Assembly (NCBI RefSeq): GCF_001854805.1
Contig: NZ_MBLO01000234.1
Span: forward strand, 62,001 to 126,000
DNA: 64,000 bases
Direction of reading: 5' to 3'
Origin: Pseudofrankia coriaricola
Lineage (GTDB): Bacteria > Actinomycetota > Actinomycetes > Frankiales > Frankiaceae
Below are positions 20,179 to 58,164 of this stretch, piece after piece. Every line of letters begins with the position of its first letter. The stretch's first letter is position 1. Both the position numbers and the translations under genes were made by a program. Below the pieces are notes generated by a model, which worked only from the letters and a program-made list of their open reading frames with translations, was not told where the DNA came from and did no database searches.

Positions 20179-20192
20179 TCGGATCCTCTCTT

Positions 20193-20428
20193 GACTCCCG
20201 GTAGCCTCCGAAGGCGCGAAGAAGAACATTTTCGCACCTCCTTTGGCCACACGACTCCCGGTAGCCTCCGGAGGCGCGAAGAAGAGCATTTTCGCGCCTC
20301 CTTTGGCCACGTGACTCCGGTAGGCCTCCGGAGGCGCGAAGAAGAGCATTTTCGCGCCTCCTTTGGCCACGTGCCTCGGTAGGCCTCCGAAGGCGCGGCG
20401 GAAGAACCATTCCCGCCAGTCTTCCACG
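20193..20428 (-). repeat. Tandem array (4 units, 60 bp) of SD-hairpin leader element upstream of pepN
   Basis: Three near-identical 60-bp units (20193-20252, 20253-20312, 20313-20372) and a fourth degenerate one up to ~20428. Read on the pepN strand each intact unit holds AAAGGAGG, then GCGAAA, then ATG. The GGAGGYGCGAA arm pairs with a TTCGCGCCTYC arm 10 bases later, so the ribosome site is inside an 11-bp stem and the AUG is in the loop. Sixty is a multiple of three and no stop intervenes, so every unit's AUG is in frame with pepN. The fourth unit has lost the SD. Confidence 0.85.
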
Positions 20429-24633: not shown

Positions 24634-25647
24634 ATGTCGGACTCGTCCCTGGACGATGCTTTTCGACACATCAGCCCGAAGATGCTATTCGCGCAACGGC
24701 CGGCAGGCGCCTGTCGCGAAGTCGGCGCAGCGTGGGGTGGGACTTTGGACTGGGTGCCCGTGAGCGTGGTCATCCCGGCGTTCAACGAGGCCCGCCGGCT
24801 CCCCTGGTCGCTCCCCGTCCTCTCGGACGTCCTACGCCGGTTTCCCGGCGCCGAGCTGATCGTCGTCGACGACGGCAGCACCGACGACACCGCCCGGATA
24901 GCCGGCGAACTGCTGCGCGACGTACCGAACAGCCGGGTGATCAGACTCCCGTGGAACAACGGGAAGGGCGCCGCGGTCCGGGTCGGCGTGGCCGCCGCCA
25001 TCGGCGAGGCGATCGTGTTCATGGACGCCGACCTGGCCTCCGACGTCTCCGACCTGCCGCTGCTGCTGGCGGAGCTGGAGCATGCCGAGGTCGTGCTCGG
25101 CTCGCGCCGGCTCGGCCGGGGCGCGGACCGCGCCGCCTCGCGCCGCCTGGGCAGCTGGGCGTTCAACCAGCTCACCCGCTCGCTGGTCTCCCTCGACCTT
25201 GCCGACACCCAGTGCGGCTTCAAGGCGTTCCGCCACGCCGAGGCAAAGGTCCTCTTCGGCCTGTCGCAGGTAAACGGATTCGGCTTCGACGTCGAGGTGC
25301 TCAGCCTCGCGCGATCGCTCGGCTACCGGATCGCCGAGATCCCGGTTCGCTGGTCGGAGGAGCCGGGGGGGACGTTCCGGGTCGTCCGGCACACCCCGGC
25401 GATGCTGGCCGAGCTCGCGCGGGCACGCCGCCATGCCCACCGGGCCGTGCCAGGAGGGCCGGTGACACCCAGCGCGTGGCCGAGCCGGGGCCGCGACGTC
25501 GCCGGGCCGCCGAAGCCGGCCACGGACCCGTCGCCGGCGAGCCCGCCCGCGGCGCAGGCCGGAAGCCCGCCGTCGGCCGCGCCGACGCAGGTTCCGGCTC
25601 TGCCCCAGGAAGTGCCCCAGGAAGCCGGTCGCATCCGCGGCTTGTAA
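24634..25647 (+). CDS. GT2 glycosyltransferase, dolichyl/polyprenyl-phosphate glucosyltransferase-like
   Basis: Membrane-associated GT-A enzyme expected to move a sugar from a nucleotide donor to a polyprenyl phosphate or a wall glycan. Motifs: VSVVIPAFNEARRLP, the donor site VVDDGSTDDT, NNGKGAAVR, the metal-binding DADLAS, GSRRLGRG and DTQCGFKAFR, with FGFDVEVLSLARSLGYRIAEIPVRW typical of Alg5-like enzymes. About 75 C-terminal residues are Pro/Ala-rich. ATG 24634 was chosen; the first ~45 codons have untypical third positions, so a start nearer VPVSVV is possible. It is a close paralogue of the enzyme at 29.6 kb. Confidence 0.87.
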   Translation: MSDSSLDDAFRHISPKMLFAQRPAGACREVGAAWGGTLDWVPVSVVIPAFNEARRLPWSLPVLSDVLRRFPGAELIVVDDGSTDDTARIAGELLRDVPNSRVIRLPWNNGKGAAVRVGVAAAIGEAIVFMDADLASDVSDLPLLLAELEHAEVVLGSRRLGRGADRAASRRLGSWAFNQLTRSLVSLDLADTQCGFKAFRHAEAKVLFGLSQVNGFGFDVEVLSLARSLGYRIAEIPVRWSEEPGGTFRVVRHTPAMLAELARARRHAHRAVPGGPVTPSAWPSRGRDVAGPPKPATDPSPASPPAAQAGSPPSAAPTQVPALPQEVPQEAGRIRGL

Positions 25648-29612: not shown

Positions 29613-30776
29613 ATGGGCAAGGTCTCTTTAAGTGTTGTTATCCCGGCTTTCAATGAGGCCCACCGGCTTCCGTCGTCCCTTCCCGTCCTTTCGGATGCCC
29701 TGCGTGCCCTTTCGCTCGACGACGCCGAGGTGATCGTCGTTGACGACGGCAGTGTCGACGACACCGCCGAGATAGCCGCGGAACTGCTGCGCGACCTGGC
29801 GAAAGGCCGTGTCATCAGCCTGCCGAGCAACAATGGGAAGGGCGCCGCGGTGCGGGCCGGAGTCGCCGCCGCCACGGGCGAGGCGATCGTGTTCATGGAC
29901 GCCGACCTGGCCTCCGACGTCTCCGAGCTGCCGGCGCTGCTGGCGGCGCTCCAGGACGCCGAGGTGGCGCTCGGGTCGCGCCGGCTGGGCCACGGCGTCG
30001 ACCGCGCCGTCACCCGTCGCGTGGGCAGCTGGGCGTTCCACGGGATCTCCCGACTGCTGGTTCCGCTCGGCCTCGCTGACACCCAGTGCGGCTTCAAGGC
30101 TTTCCGGCACGCCGAGGCGAAGATCCTCTTCGACCGGTCCGAGGCCACCGGCTTCGGTTTCGACGTCGAGGTGCTCGCCATCGCCCGGTCGCTGGACTAC
30201 CGGATCGCTGAGGTTCCGGTGCGCTGGATCGAGAAGCCGGACGGGACGTTCCGCGCCGGGCGGCACACTCCAGCGATGCTCGTCGACCTGCTCAGGGCCC
30301 GCCGGCATATCACCCGGGCAGGCCAGCGGGCGCGCGTCGCCGGGCTCGTGCCCGCCGGGCCGCCGCGTGGCGGAGGCAACGGCCAGGCAGGGGGCGGCCG
30401 TAGCGGCCCGGGCCCCGCTGGCCTTGGCAGGGCCGGCCGGCCAGCAGTCACCCCGTCGGCGGCTTCGGCGGAGCCGAGACGCCCTGACCGGGTCCCGATC
30501 CGGCCGGTGTCACCGGCGCCACCGGCGTGGCTGCGGGCCGGGGGGAGGTCTGTGCTGCCCTGCTCGCCCACCCCGCACGCGGATTCAGCCAGGCCGAGGC
30601 GCCTTGACCGGGCACCGGCATGGCCGGCCTCGTCGACCTCACCGGCCTCGGCTACGGCGGCCGCACCGGTTTCGTCGGCCTCACCGGCGTCGCAGGCGTG
30701 GCTGCGGGCCGGGGCGAGGTCCGCGCTGCCGCGCTCGCCAACGATGCGGCCGGCCGGCCCGGCCAGGCACCGATGA
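29613..30776 (+). CDS. GT2 glycosyltransferase, second paralogue
   Basis: Same fold and motifs as the GT2 enzyme at 24.6 kb: SVVIPAFNEAHRLP, VVDDGSVDDT, SNNGKGAAVRAGVAAATGEA, DADLASDVSELP, DTQCGFKAFRHAEAKILF and FGFDVEVLAIARSLDYRIAEVPVRW. The catalytic ~240 residues are roughly two-thirds identical to the paralogue by eye. The C-terminal ~150 residues differ: Gly-rich, then two degenerate copies of a unit containing AWLRAGxRSxLPxSPT, an internal duplication. ATG 29613 was chosen; ATG 29574 would add MPCCSSIDAAGVL. The first codons are AT-rich, unlike the rest. The product probably modifies or supplies a lipid-linked sugar for the flippase. Confidence 0.86.
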   Translation: MGKVSLSVVIPAFNEAHRLPSSLPVLSDALRALSLDDAEVIVVDDGSVDDTAEIAAELLRDLAKGRVISLPSNNGKGAAVRAGVAAATGEAIVFMDADLASDVSELPALLAALQDAEVALGSRRLGHGVDRAVTRRVGSWAFHGISRLLVPLGLADTQCGFKAFRHAEAKILFDRSEATGFGFDVEVLAIARSLDYRIAEVPVRWIEKPDGTFRAGRHTPAMLVDLLRARRHITRAGQRARVAGLVPAGPPRGGGNGQAGGGRSGPGPAGLGRAGRPAVTPSAASAEPRRPDRVPIRPVSPAPPAWLRAGGRSVLPCSPTPHADSARPRRLDRAPAWPASSTSPASATAAAPVSSASPASQAWLRAGARSALPRSPTMRPAGPARHR

Positions 30777-55092: not shown

Positions 55093-56328
55093 ATGGCATC
55101 GCAGATCAGCCTCGACACCATCGACGTCTACGACCCCGATCTGTACGTCACCGGTGTCCCGCACGACCAGTTCGCCGTGCTGCGGGCCGAGGCCCCGGTC
55201 TTCCGGCACGCCGACCACGAGCTGCCGGACGGGTTCTGGGCGGTGACCAGGCACGCCGACGTCACGTACGTCTCCCGCAATCCGGAGATCTTCTCGTCGC
55301 ACAGGCAGACCTGCTTTCTCAACGAGCAGGACCCCGAGCGGCTGGCCGAGCAGCAGATGATGATGGTCAACCAGGACCCGCCGGACCACACCCGGCTGCG
55401 TAGCCTGCTCAACCGCGGCTTCACGCCGCGCACGGTCGGCCGGCTCGCCGGCAAGATCCAGAGTGCCTGCGACACGATCGTGGACAAGGCGCTGGCCGCC
55501 GGCTCCGGCGACTTCGTGGCGCTGTGCGCGGCTGAGCTGCCCCTCGTGGTAATCGCGGAGCTGATGGGCGTCCCGAACGCCGACCGCTACAAGATCTTCG
55601 AATGGTCGAACCGGATGCTGGCGGCCGACGATCCCGAGCTCAGTCCGGCCCCCGACGAGGGCGTGGTAGCCGCGGCGGAGGCCTACGCCTACGCCAACGA
55701 GCTGGGCAAGGCGAAGCGAGGGTGCCCGGTCGACGACATCGTCAGCAAGCTGGTCGTCCCGGACGAGAACGGCCACGAACTGTCGGAGCTCGAGTTCGAC
55801 CTGTTCTTCATTCTGTTGATGGTCGCCGGTAACGAGACCACCCGGAACGCGATCTCCGGTGGCATGCAGGCTCTGATCGACTACCCGGAACAGTGGGAGC
55901 GGCTGCGCGCCGACCCAGACCGGATGGCGCGTCTCGCCGCTGACGAGATGGTCCGCTGGGCGAGCCCGGTGATGGGCTTCCGGCGTACCGCCACCCGCGA
56001 CGTCGAGCTCTCCGGCCAGCTCATCAGGGAGAACGACAAGGTCATCATGTACTACACGGCGGCCAACTTCGACGAGGCGGTGTTCGAGAACCCGCACGCG
56101 TTCGACATCGGCCGCGACCCGAACCCGCATGTCGGCTTCGGCGGCGGCGGCCCGCACTTCTGCCTGGGCCGCTGCGTAGCCTGCTCAACCGCGGCTTCAC
56201 GCCGCGCACGGTCGGCCGGCTCGCCGGCAAGATCCAGAGTGCCTGCGACACGATCGTGGACAAGGCGCTGGCCGCCGGCTCCGGCGACTTCGTGGCGCTG
56301 TGCGCGGCTGAGCTGCCCCTCGTGGTAA
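55093..56328 (+). CDS. Cytochrome P450, CYP125/124-like, broken after the heme motif by tandem duplication
   Basis: Heme monooxygenase resembling the steroid/lipid hydroxylases CYP125 and CYP124. The first ~360 residues are normal: DPDLYVTGVPHDQF, NQDPPDHTRLRSLLNRGFTPR, I-helix VAGNETTRNAISGG, ExxR in ADEMVRW, then PNPHVGFGGGGPHFCLGR with the heme-ligand Cys. Directly after FCLGR the frame enters a second copy of the gene's middle, shifted by two bases, and runs out after ~50 foreign residues (CVACSTAASRR). Helix L (HLAQLEIEI) is therefore lost. ATG 55093 has GGAGG 5 nt upstream. Removing one repeat copy would restore a 409-residue enzyme. Confidence 0.85.
   Translation: MASQISLDTIDVYDPDLYVTGVPHDQFAVLRAEAPVFRHADHELPDGFWAVTRHADVTYVSRNPEIFSSHRQTCFLNEQDPERLAEQQMMMVNQDPPDHTRLRSLLNRGFTPRTVGRLAGKIQSACDTIVDKALAAGSGDFVALCAAELPLVVIAELMGVPNADRYKIFEWSNRMLAADDPELSPAPDEGVVAAAEAYAYANELGKAKRGCPVDDIVSKLVVPDENGHELSELEFDLFFILLMVAGNETTRNAISGGMQALIDYPEQWERLRADPDRMARLAADEMVRWASPVMGFRRTATRDVELSGQLIRENDKVIMYYTAANFDEAVFENPHAFDIGRDPNPHVGFGGGGPHFCLGRCVACSTAASRRARSAGSPARSRVPATRSWTRRWPPAPATSWRCARLSCPSW
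55395..56170 (+). repeat. First copy of 776-bp tandem direct duplication
   Basis: Runs from CTGCGTAGC in the codons LRSLL of the P450 to the codons of FCLGR. The second copy begins at the next base and is identical wherever compared, including several hundred bases of coding sequence. The junction has only 2 bp of shared sequence (GC). Confidence 0.93.
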
Positions 56329-56946
56329 TCGCGGAGCTGATGGGCGTCCCGAACGCCGACCGCTACAAGATCTTCGAATGGTCGAACCGGATGCTGGCGG
56401 CCGACGATCCCGAGCTCAGTCCGGCCCCCGACGAGGGCGTGGTAGCCGCGGCGGAGGCCTACGCCTACGCCAACGAGCTGGGCAAGGCGAAGCGAGGGTG
56501 CCCGGTCGACGACATCGTCAGCAAGCTGGTCGTCCCGGACGAGAACGGCCACGAACTGTCGGAGCTCGAGTTCGACCTGTTCTTCATTCTGTTGATGGTC
56601 GCCGGTAACGAGACCACCCGGAACGCGATCTCCGGTGGCATGCAGGCTCTGATCGACTACCCGGAACAGTGGGAGCGGCTGCGCGCCGACCCAGACCGGA
56701 TGGCGCGTCTCGCCGCTGACGAGATGGTCCGCTGGGCGAGCCCGGTGATGGGCTTCCGGCGTACCGCCACCCGCGACGTCGAGCTCTCCGGCCAGCTCAT
56801 CAGGGAGAACGACAAGGTCATCATGTACTACACGGCGGCCAACTTCGACGAGGCGGTGTTCGAGAACCCGCACGCGTTCGACATCGGCCGCGACCCGAAC
56901 CCGCATGTCGGCTTCGGCGGCGGCGGCCCGCACTTCTGCCTGGGCC
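56171..56946 (+). repeat. Second copy of 776-bp tandem direct duplication
   Basis: Same content as 55395-56170. Because 776 is not a multiple of three, the second copy is read in another frame from the first. Unique sequence resumes around 56949 with the genuine C-terminal codons. Confidence 0.93.
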
Positions 56947-57098
56947 GCCACCTCGCGCAGCTGGAGATCGAGATCATGTACCGGACGCTGGCCCGCCGCG
57001 TCGCCCAGGTCGTGCCGACCGCCGCGCCGCGCCGCCTGCGCTCGAACTTCATCAACGGCGTCAAGGAGATGCAGGTCCGCCTCATCCCCGCCGACTGA
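56256..57098 (+). pseudogene. P450 C-terminal fragment from the second copy
   Basis: An open frame of 280 residues from GTG 56256 to the true stop of the P450 (FINGVKEMQVRLIPAD). It contains the I-helix, ExxR, heme motif FCLGRHLAQLEIEIMYRTLARR and C-terminus but lacks the first ~130 residues, including part of the substrate pocket. The GTG has no ribosome site. A separate functional protein is unlikely; it is the 3' half of the disrupted gene. Confidence 0.8.
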
Positions 57099-57195: not shown

Positions 57196-58164
57196 GTGAA
57201 CAAACGACCAACAGTTCGTGGCGAGCTGTGTCAACATCACGACATGAGGTCGCTGGGTGACGCGCTGGCTGTGATGGTCGCGTGCGGCGAGGGATGGCCG
57301 TCCATCCATGCCGAGCTGGTGCACCGCTATGACCCGGGCACTCTCGCGGACGCGCGCCGCGCGGCGCTCGCGCGCGACCTCGAGGCCAGGACCCGCGACG
57401 AACCAGCCACGGGCGGCGGGCGGGGCGCCGCGGCAGGCGGCGGCCCCGGCGGCTGGGGCAGGCCTGGCTCCGACTGGGAGTCGATCCTCGACGCCTGGGC
57501 CGCGGACCTCGACGACGAGGGAACGCCCGGCCTCGGCGGCGGGGGAGCGGCCTCGCGGGTCCCGGCCGGGACCGTGCCGGCGGCGTTTCTGCCGGCGCCC
57601 GCCCCGCCCGCCCGCGGCGAGGACGCCACCGACCCGGTGGTCCGCCGCGGCCGGCTGCTCGCCGCCGACGGCAGGCTGCGGGTCGAGTGGCCCGACGAGG
57701 ACGAGGTGACGGTCGTCGTCGGTGAGCACTGGCGCCGCCGCCGCGGCGAAGCCGTCAGCGGCACCGGGACCATCAGCGGCACCGGGACCATCAGCGGCAC
57801 CGGGACCATCAGCGCCCCGGACCCGCCTCGCCGGCCCGGCCTCGTCGTGCGGGAGCAGCTGCTCGTCCGCCCCTGGCTACTGCTGTCCTGGCTGCGGCCG
57901 AGGCTGGTCGCGCCGGTCCAGGCCGGTGGCCGGCCCTCGACCCGCCTGACCATGGCGCCCCGCCCCGGCCCGCGCCCGCCGGCACTTGAAGGGCTCGCCG
58001 ACGGCGCACAGCGCTTCGACCTCGTCCTGGACGACGAGACCGGCGTCATCGTCGAGCTCGCCGCCTACTACCTCGGCCGGCTCGTGGAGCGCCGCGCGCT
58101 ACGCCACCTGACCGTGGGCGATACCCCGGACCCCCGTCTGTTCGACCTGACGGCTCTCGGCTGA
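57196..58164 (+). CDS. Hypothetical protein with internal GTGTIS repeats
   Basis: 322 residues, cytoplasmic by appearance. The N-terminal part (LGDALAVMVACGEGWPSIHAELVHRYDPGTLADARRAALARDLEAR) is helical; a Gly-rich linker follows. The C-terminal part alternates beta segments (VVRRGRLLAADGRLRVEWPDEDEVTVVVGEHW) and ends in FDLVLDDETGVIVELAAYYLGRLVERRALRHLTVGDTPDPRLFDLTALG. Three exact 18-bp units (57760-57813) encode GTGTIS x3 in the middle. GTG 57196 has GGAG 7 nt upstream; ATG 57244 is an alternative. No known family or function recognised. Confidence 0.68.
   Translation: MNKRPTVRGELCQHHDMRSLGDALAVMVACGEGWPSIHAELVHRYDPGTLADARRAALARDLEARTRDEPATGGGRGAAAGGGPGGWGRPGSDWESILDAWAADLDDEGTPGLGGGGAASRVPAGTVPAAFLPAPAPPARGEDATDPVVRRGRLLAADGRLRVEWPDEDEVTVVVGEHWRRRRGEAVSGTGTISGTGTISGTGTISAPDPPRRPGLVVREQLLVRPWLLLSWLRPRLVAPVQAGGRPSTRLTMAPRPGPRPPALEGLADGAQRFDLVLDDETGVIVELAAYYLGRLVERRALRHLTVGDTPDPRLFDLTALG

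Follow-up and report, generated by a model that had tools for sequence, protein, structure and literature searches.

In the draft genome of Frankia (now Pseudofrankia) sp. BMG5.36, a P450 gene that is assigned to the CYP125 family contains a 776-bp unit present twice, head-to-tail, with 0 differences between the copies (100% identity). On balance, we favour the reading that a recent, non-programmed tandem duplication mutation arose in the sequenced BMG5.36 culture and would have been carried by at least some of its cells.

Structure of the duplication

The repeat was identified by self-comparison of the window, i.e., the whole 64-kb stretch of DNA that was analysed, contig C234:62001-126000, and direct comparison within the window gave an exact run at offset 776 that extends from 55395 to 56172 (778 bp). 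This agrees base for base with the original prediction, in which 55395-56170 was said to be repeated immediately and identically with 2 bp of junction homology. Because the identity of the copies is 100%, chance as the source of a 776-bp repeat is excluded. The features concerned are as follows.

55395..56170, + strand: tandem unit, first copy (exact match at offset 776)
56171..56946, + strand: tandem unit, second copy, identical to the first (exact match at offset 776)
56171..56172, also 55395-55396 and 56947-56948, + strand: 2-bp junction homology GC (copy alignment; not above chance)
55093..56328, + strand: ORF1, putative CYP125-family P450 with an out-of-frame tail, 411 aa (ORF, Pfam p450, PDB matches)
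56256..57098, + strand: ORF2, N-terminally truncated P450 remainder, 280 aa, native residues 130-409, internal GTG start (ORF, Pfam p450)

At the left flank of the duplication, ...CACACCCG is followed by GCTGCGTAG; at the copy-copy junction, ...CCTGGGCC is followed by GCTGCGTAG; and at the right end, ...CCTGGGCC is followed by GCCACCTCG. The junction-spanning sequence of the two-copy form is thus CCTGGGCCGC joined to TGCGTAGCC.

Because the unit length of 776 is not divisible by 3, the P450 product is cut off just after the heme-cysteine loop. The native residues 1-360 of ORF1 end with the heme-loop motif FCLGR, and 51 foreign out-of-frame residues follow up to the stop. When the outer flanks are joined to give the one-copy form, a 409-codon frame results, equal in length to the orthologue in Pseudofrankia asymbiotica. 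Three further points of the original prediction were therefore borne out: the frame is shifted by the unit length (ORF1 leaves the native frame after residue 360), the first copy ends just past the heme cysteine (the native part of ORF1 stops at the end of FCLGR), and removal of one copy yields an enzyme of 409 residues.

Identity of the disrupted gene

Using the first 360 residues of ORF1 as the query, the best PDB matches were CYP125 proteins, with E = 9.5e-133 for CYP125MRCA and about 3e-97 for M. tuberculosis CYP125, whereas the structures of CYP124, CYP268 and CYP142 matched more weakly. Pfam p450 was assigned to both ORF1 and ORF2. By its closest characterised proteins, the disrupted gene is thus placed in the CYP125 (steroid C26-monooxygenase) family, consistent with the earlier description of a CYP125-like P450 split by a duplication. 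The likeness to this family extends over residues 9-359, while the assembled BMG5.36 copy differs in being without the native C-terminal 49 residues, and its substrate class is a putative one read from sequence. The heme-thiolate loop with its cysteine, GFGGGGPHFCLGR (native residues 348-360), is kept in ORF1; nevertheless, the enzyme would presumably be inactive in the two-copy form.

The P450 gene is surrounded by genes for two F420-dependent luciferase-like oxidoreductases, an aldehyde dehydrogenase, a TauE family transporter and a flavin-reductase-domain protein. This CYP125-family P450 is probably represented in the published BMG5.36 draft by a gene that is broken or split. Until the reads have been checked, this draft should not serve as a basis for counting functional CYP125 genes in Pseudofrankia.

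Ancestral state of the locus

The nearest named relatives are P. asymbiotica NRRL B-16386 (94% protein identity), Frankia nepalensis CN7 and Frankia sp. AgB1.9. In all six of the closest same-genus genomes, the P450 orthologue is single-copy, collinear and uninterrupted across the duplication site, and some of these single-copy orthologues are located on chromosome-size contigs. When aligned to the six orthologues, the two-copy query gives two matches across the duplicated part, while the one-copy form matches once and continuously over the junction. One copy is therefore the ancestral state of the gene. No duplication at this gene was found in independent strains, among the six same-genus orthologues and further homologues. 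In addition, comparison of the one-copy frame with the P. asymbiotica orthologue gave a dN of 0.030 and a dS of 0.169, which shows that purifying selection acted on the gene before the duplication event and until very recently. With 0 differences in 776 bp, either the two copies are of very recent origin, or recombination has kept them identical, or the second copy is not real.

The neighbourhood of the P450 gene is collinear with that of P. asymbiotica except for short gaps, and the matches in two other members of the genus (G006 and G001) are also in order over most of the compared stretch. Two segments near the P450 gene, 54375-54776 and 60393-60705 of the window, are absent at the equivalent place in P. 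asymbiotica; they are not evidently repeat elements, as just short weak matches to them occur elsewhere in the BMG5.36 genome.

Breakpoints of the duplication

A junction homology of at least 2 bp is reached at 22% of random window positions at equal spacing (P = 0.22); the 2-bp homology observed here is therefore uninformative, and a microhomology-driven duplication was rejected because the homology is at chance level. A mobile element or flanking repeats as the cause were likewise set aside, since the repeat search of the window found no insertion element or flanking repeat at the breakpoints, and no repeat of at least 40 bp besides the duplication itself. A stem-loop lies over the right breakpoint, where 56919-56929 pairs with 56942-56952, but its folding energy falls at the 31st percentile of random window positions, which argues against a hairpin-driven breakpoint. 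The 60-base folding energies and the G+C content are ordinary at both breakpoints. Taken together, the ordinary breakpoints, the chance-level homology and the lack of a flanking repeat in the window mean that the event resembles either a tandem duplication independent of homology or a random join in assembly.

Duplication mutation or assembly artefact

A recent duplication mutation and an assembly error are the two main alternatives. The BMG5.36 draft comprises 11,203,906 bp in 280 contigs and rests on 28x Illumina HiSeq 2x250 data, for which SPAdes 3.5 and ALLPATHS-LG served as assemblers (PMC5391423). An exact repeat of 776 bp spans roughly three reads and exceeds the usual insert, and its copy number is not reliably countable with 250-base reads. 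It is thus quite conceivable, and only somewhat less likely than a real duplication, that the second copy is an artefact of assembly or library. The true chromosome would then have a single copy, and with it an intact P450 of 409 residues, with a 776-bp overlap written twice from overlapping contigs of the two assemblers or from a few chimeric fragments. Faulty merging of two overlapping contigs, or such a chimeric fragment, would give a picture identical to the one observed, and the nature of the draft (short reads, 28x, two assemblers), the single-copy state of the locus in all relatives and the random-looking junction, with its unremarkable hairpin and GC content, are all compatible with this explanation. 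The single Ns scattered through the assembly, some of them clustered, also indicate local ambiguity. These Ns are thinly scattered in the BMG5.36 assembly and denser in that of P. asymbiotica; clusters in otherwise clean BMG5.36 contigs were seen at L056 (G000:C219:1-20000) and L088 (G000:C220:40001-60000), and perhaps mark local ambiguity between near-identical sequences.

On the other hand, the repeat sits within a 172-kb contig, the 64-kb window has an N count of 0, and exact overlaps of 776 bp are easily merged by assemblers. In a graph assembler, a join with a 2-bp overlap in an N-free contig normally requires reads that cross the junction; this speaks for the junction being real in some molecules at least. 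Moreover, a scan of 1.99 Mb (18%) of the BMG5.36 assembly for exact tandem duplications with a unit of at least 100 bp turned up this one alone, and 0.33 Mb of P. asymbiotica, which comes from the same laboratory and pipeline, and 0.2 Mb from each of two relatives with the locus on a chromosome-size contig yielded none. The scanned sequence does hold exact tandem repeats of short units (<100 bp). The scan therefore argues against a systematic assembler fault, while one isolated error is possible.

Under the favoured explanation of a recent duplication mutation, the starting point would be an intact single-copy CYP125-family P450 gene, of which a 776-bp segment was duplicated in direct order by replication or end-joining repair, leaving a junction practically free of homology (2 bp). 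The resulting frameshift would truncate the P450 just past the heme-cysteine loop and presumably inactivate the enzyme. One copy could subsequently be deleted at an appreciable rate, by RecA-dependent recombination or by RecA-independent template switching, and the culture may be mixed, with one-copy and two-copy cells, because long perfect tandem repeats should lose a copy at such a rate. Reversion by recombination is expected of any perfect tandem duplication and is nothing special to the P450 locus.

Comparison with known unstable duplications

Instability of tandem repeats is known from E. coli, where copies are lost without RecA through template switching (PMC8378479). This is a likely route for copy loss from a repeat of the BMG5.36 type, although the deletion rates in E. 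coli were measured on engineered 101-bp plasmid repeats, whereas the repeat described here is 776 bp long and known from an assembly. Similarly, in fission yeast ssp1, reversible tandem duplications arise through microhomology (reviewed in PMC13207564). There, too, a tandem copy of a gene segment disrupts the reading frame and could in principle be reversed, but ssp1 uses microhomology pairs and belongs to a different domain of life, while the BMG5.36 junction has 2 bp at chance level. The copy number of tandem repeats in M. tuberculosis promoters changes within a culture (PMC12817950), and in Streptococcus iniae a tandem rRNA-gene duplication is hard to distinguish from misassembly and appears unstable (PMC9176272). 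If real, the BMG5.36 duplication would be one more case of these known unstable tandem duplications, fresh, probably unstable and caught in a culture.

The closest parallel in geometry is found in the capsule genes of Streptococcus pneumoniae (the type 3 locus, cap8E and tts), in which spontaneous intragenic duplications are reported to cause phase variation (Waite et al. 2001, 2003, cited in PMC4022640). In both cases a perfect direct duplication inside an ORF inactivates the gene and the loss of one copy restores it; however, population switching was shown experimentally for the pneumococcal surface-antigen genes, whereas the BMG5.36 gene is a metabolic one known from a single assembled sequence. 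With this precedent, and with a perfect repeat that shifts the frame and, on collapsing, leaves a normal gene, a phase-variation-like switch could be imagined, in which the duplication forms and collapses at high frequency under selection, so that the P450 alternates between off and on within the population. We consider this very improbable, and it is harder still to credit that such high-frequency formation and collapse serves as a contingency mechanism for steroid or terpenoid metabolism. The site is unduplicated in every relative, the junction has no predisposing sequence, its microhomology being not above chance, and neither flanking repeats nor a mobile element occur at the breakpoints. 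This P450 gene is also not a typical contingency locus, and an obvious phenotype is doubtful, as the BMG5.36 genome contains further P450s of the CYP125-like type, the closest of which has 77% DNA identity and an intact frame. Nothing found supports a dedicated phase-variation system or genetic switch, and nothing shows that the duplication recurs or is selected. Thus, where the original prediction offered a very recent, a phase-variation-like or an artefactual event, its first and last options are retained and that of an evolved switch is not supported.

Other repeats in the window

Several other repeats were observed in the window. A perfect 18-bp tandem repeat (3.3 copies) is located at 57755-57814, and P. 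asymbiotica shares this reading frame with fewer copies. At 20192-20397, a 60-bp unit with the inverted repeat GGCGCGAA...TTTTCGCGCC is present in 3.5 tandem copies that are 85-92% alike, and two 300-bp stretches, 24846-25145 and 29720-30019, are 84% identical at a spacing of 4874 bp.
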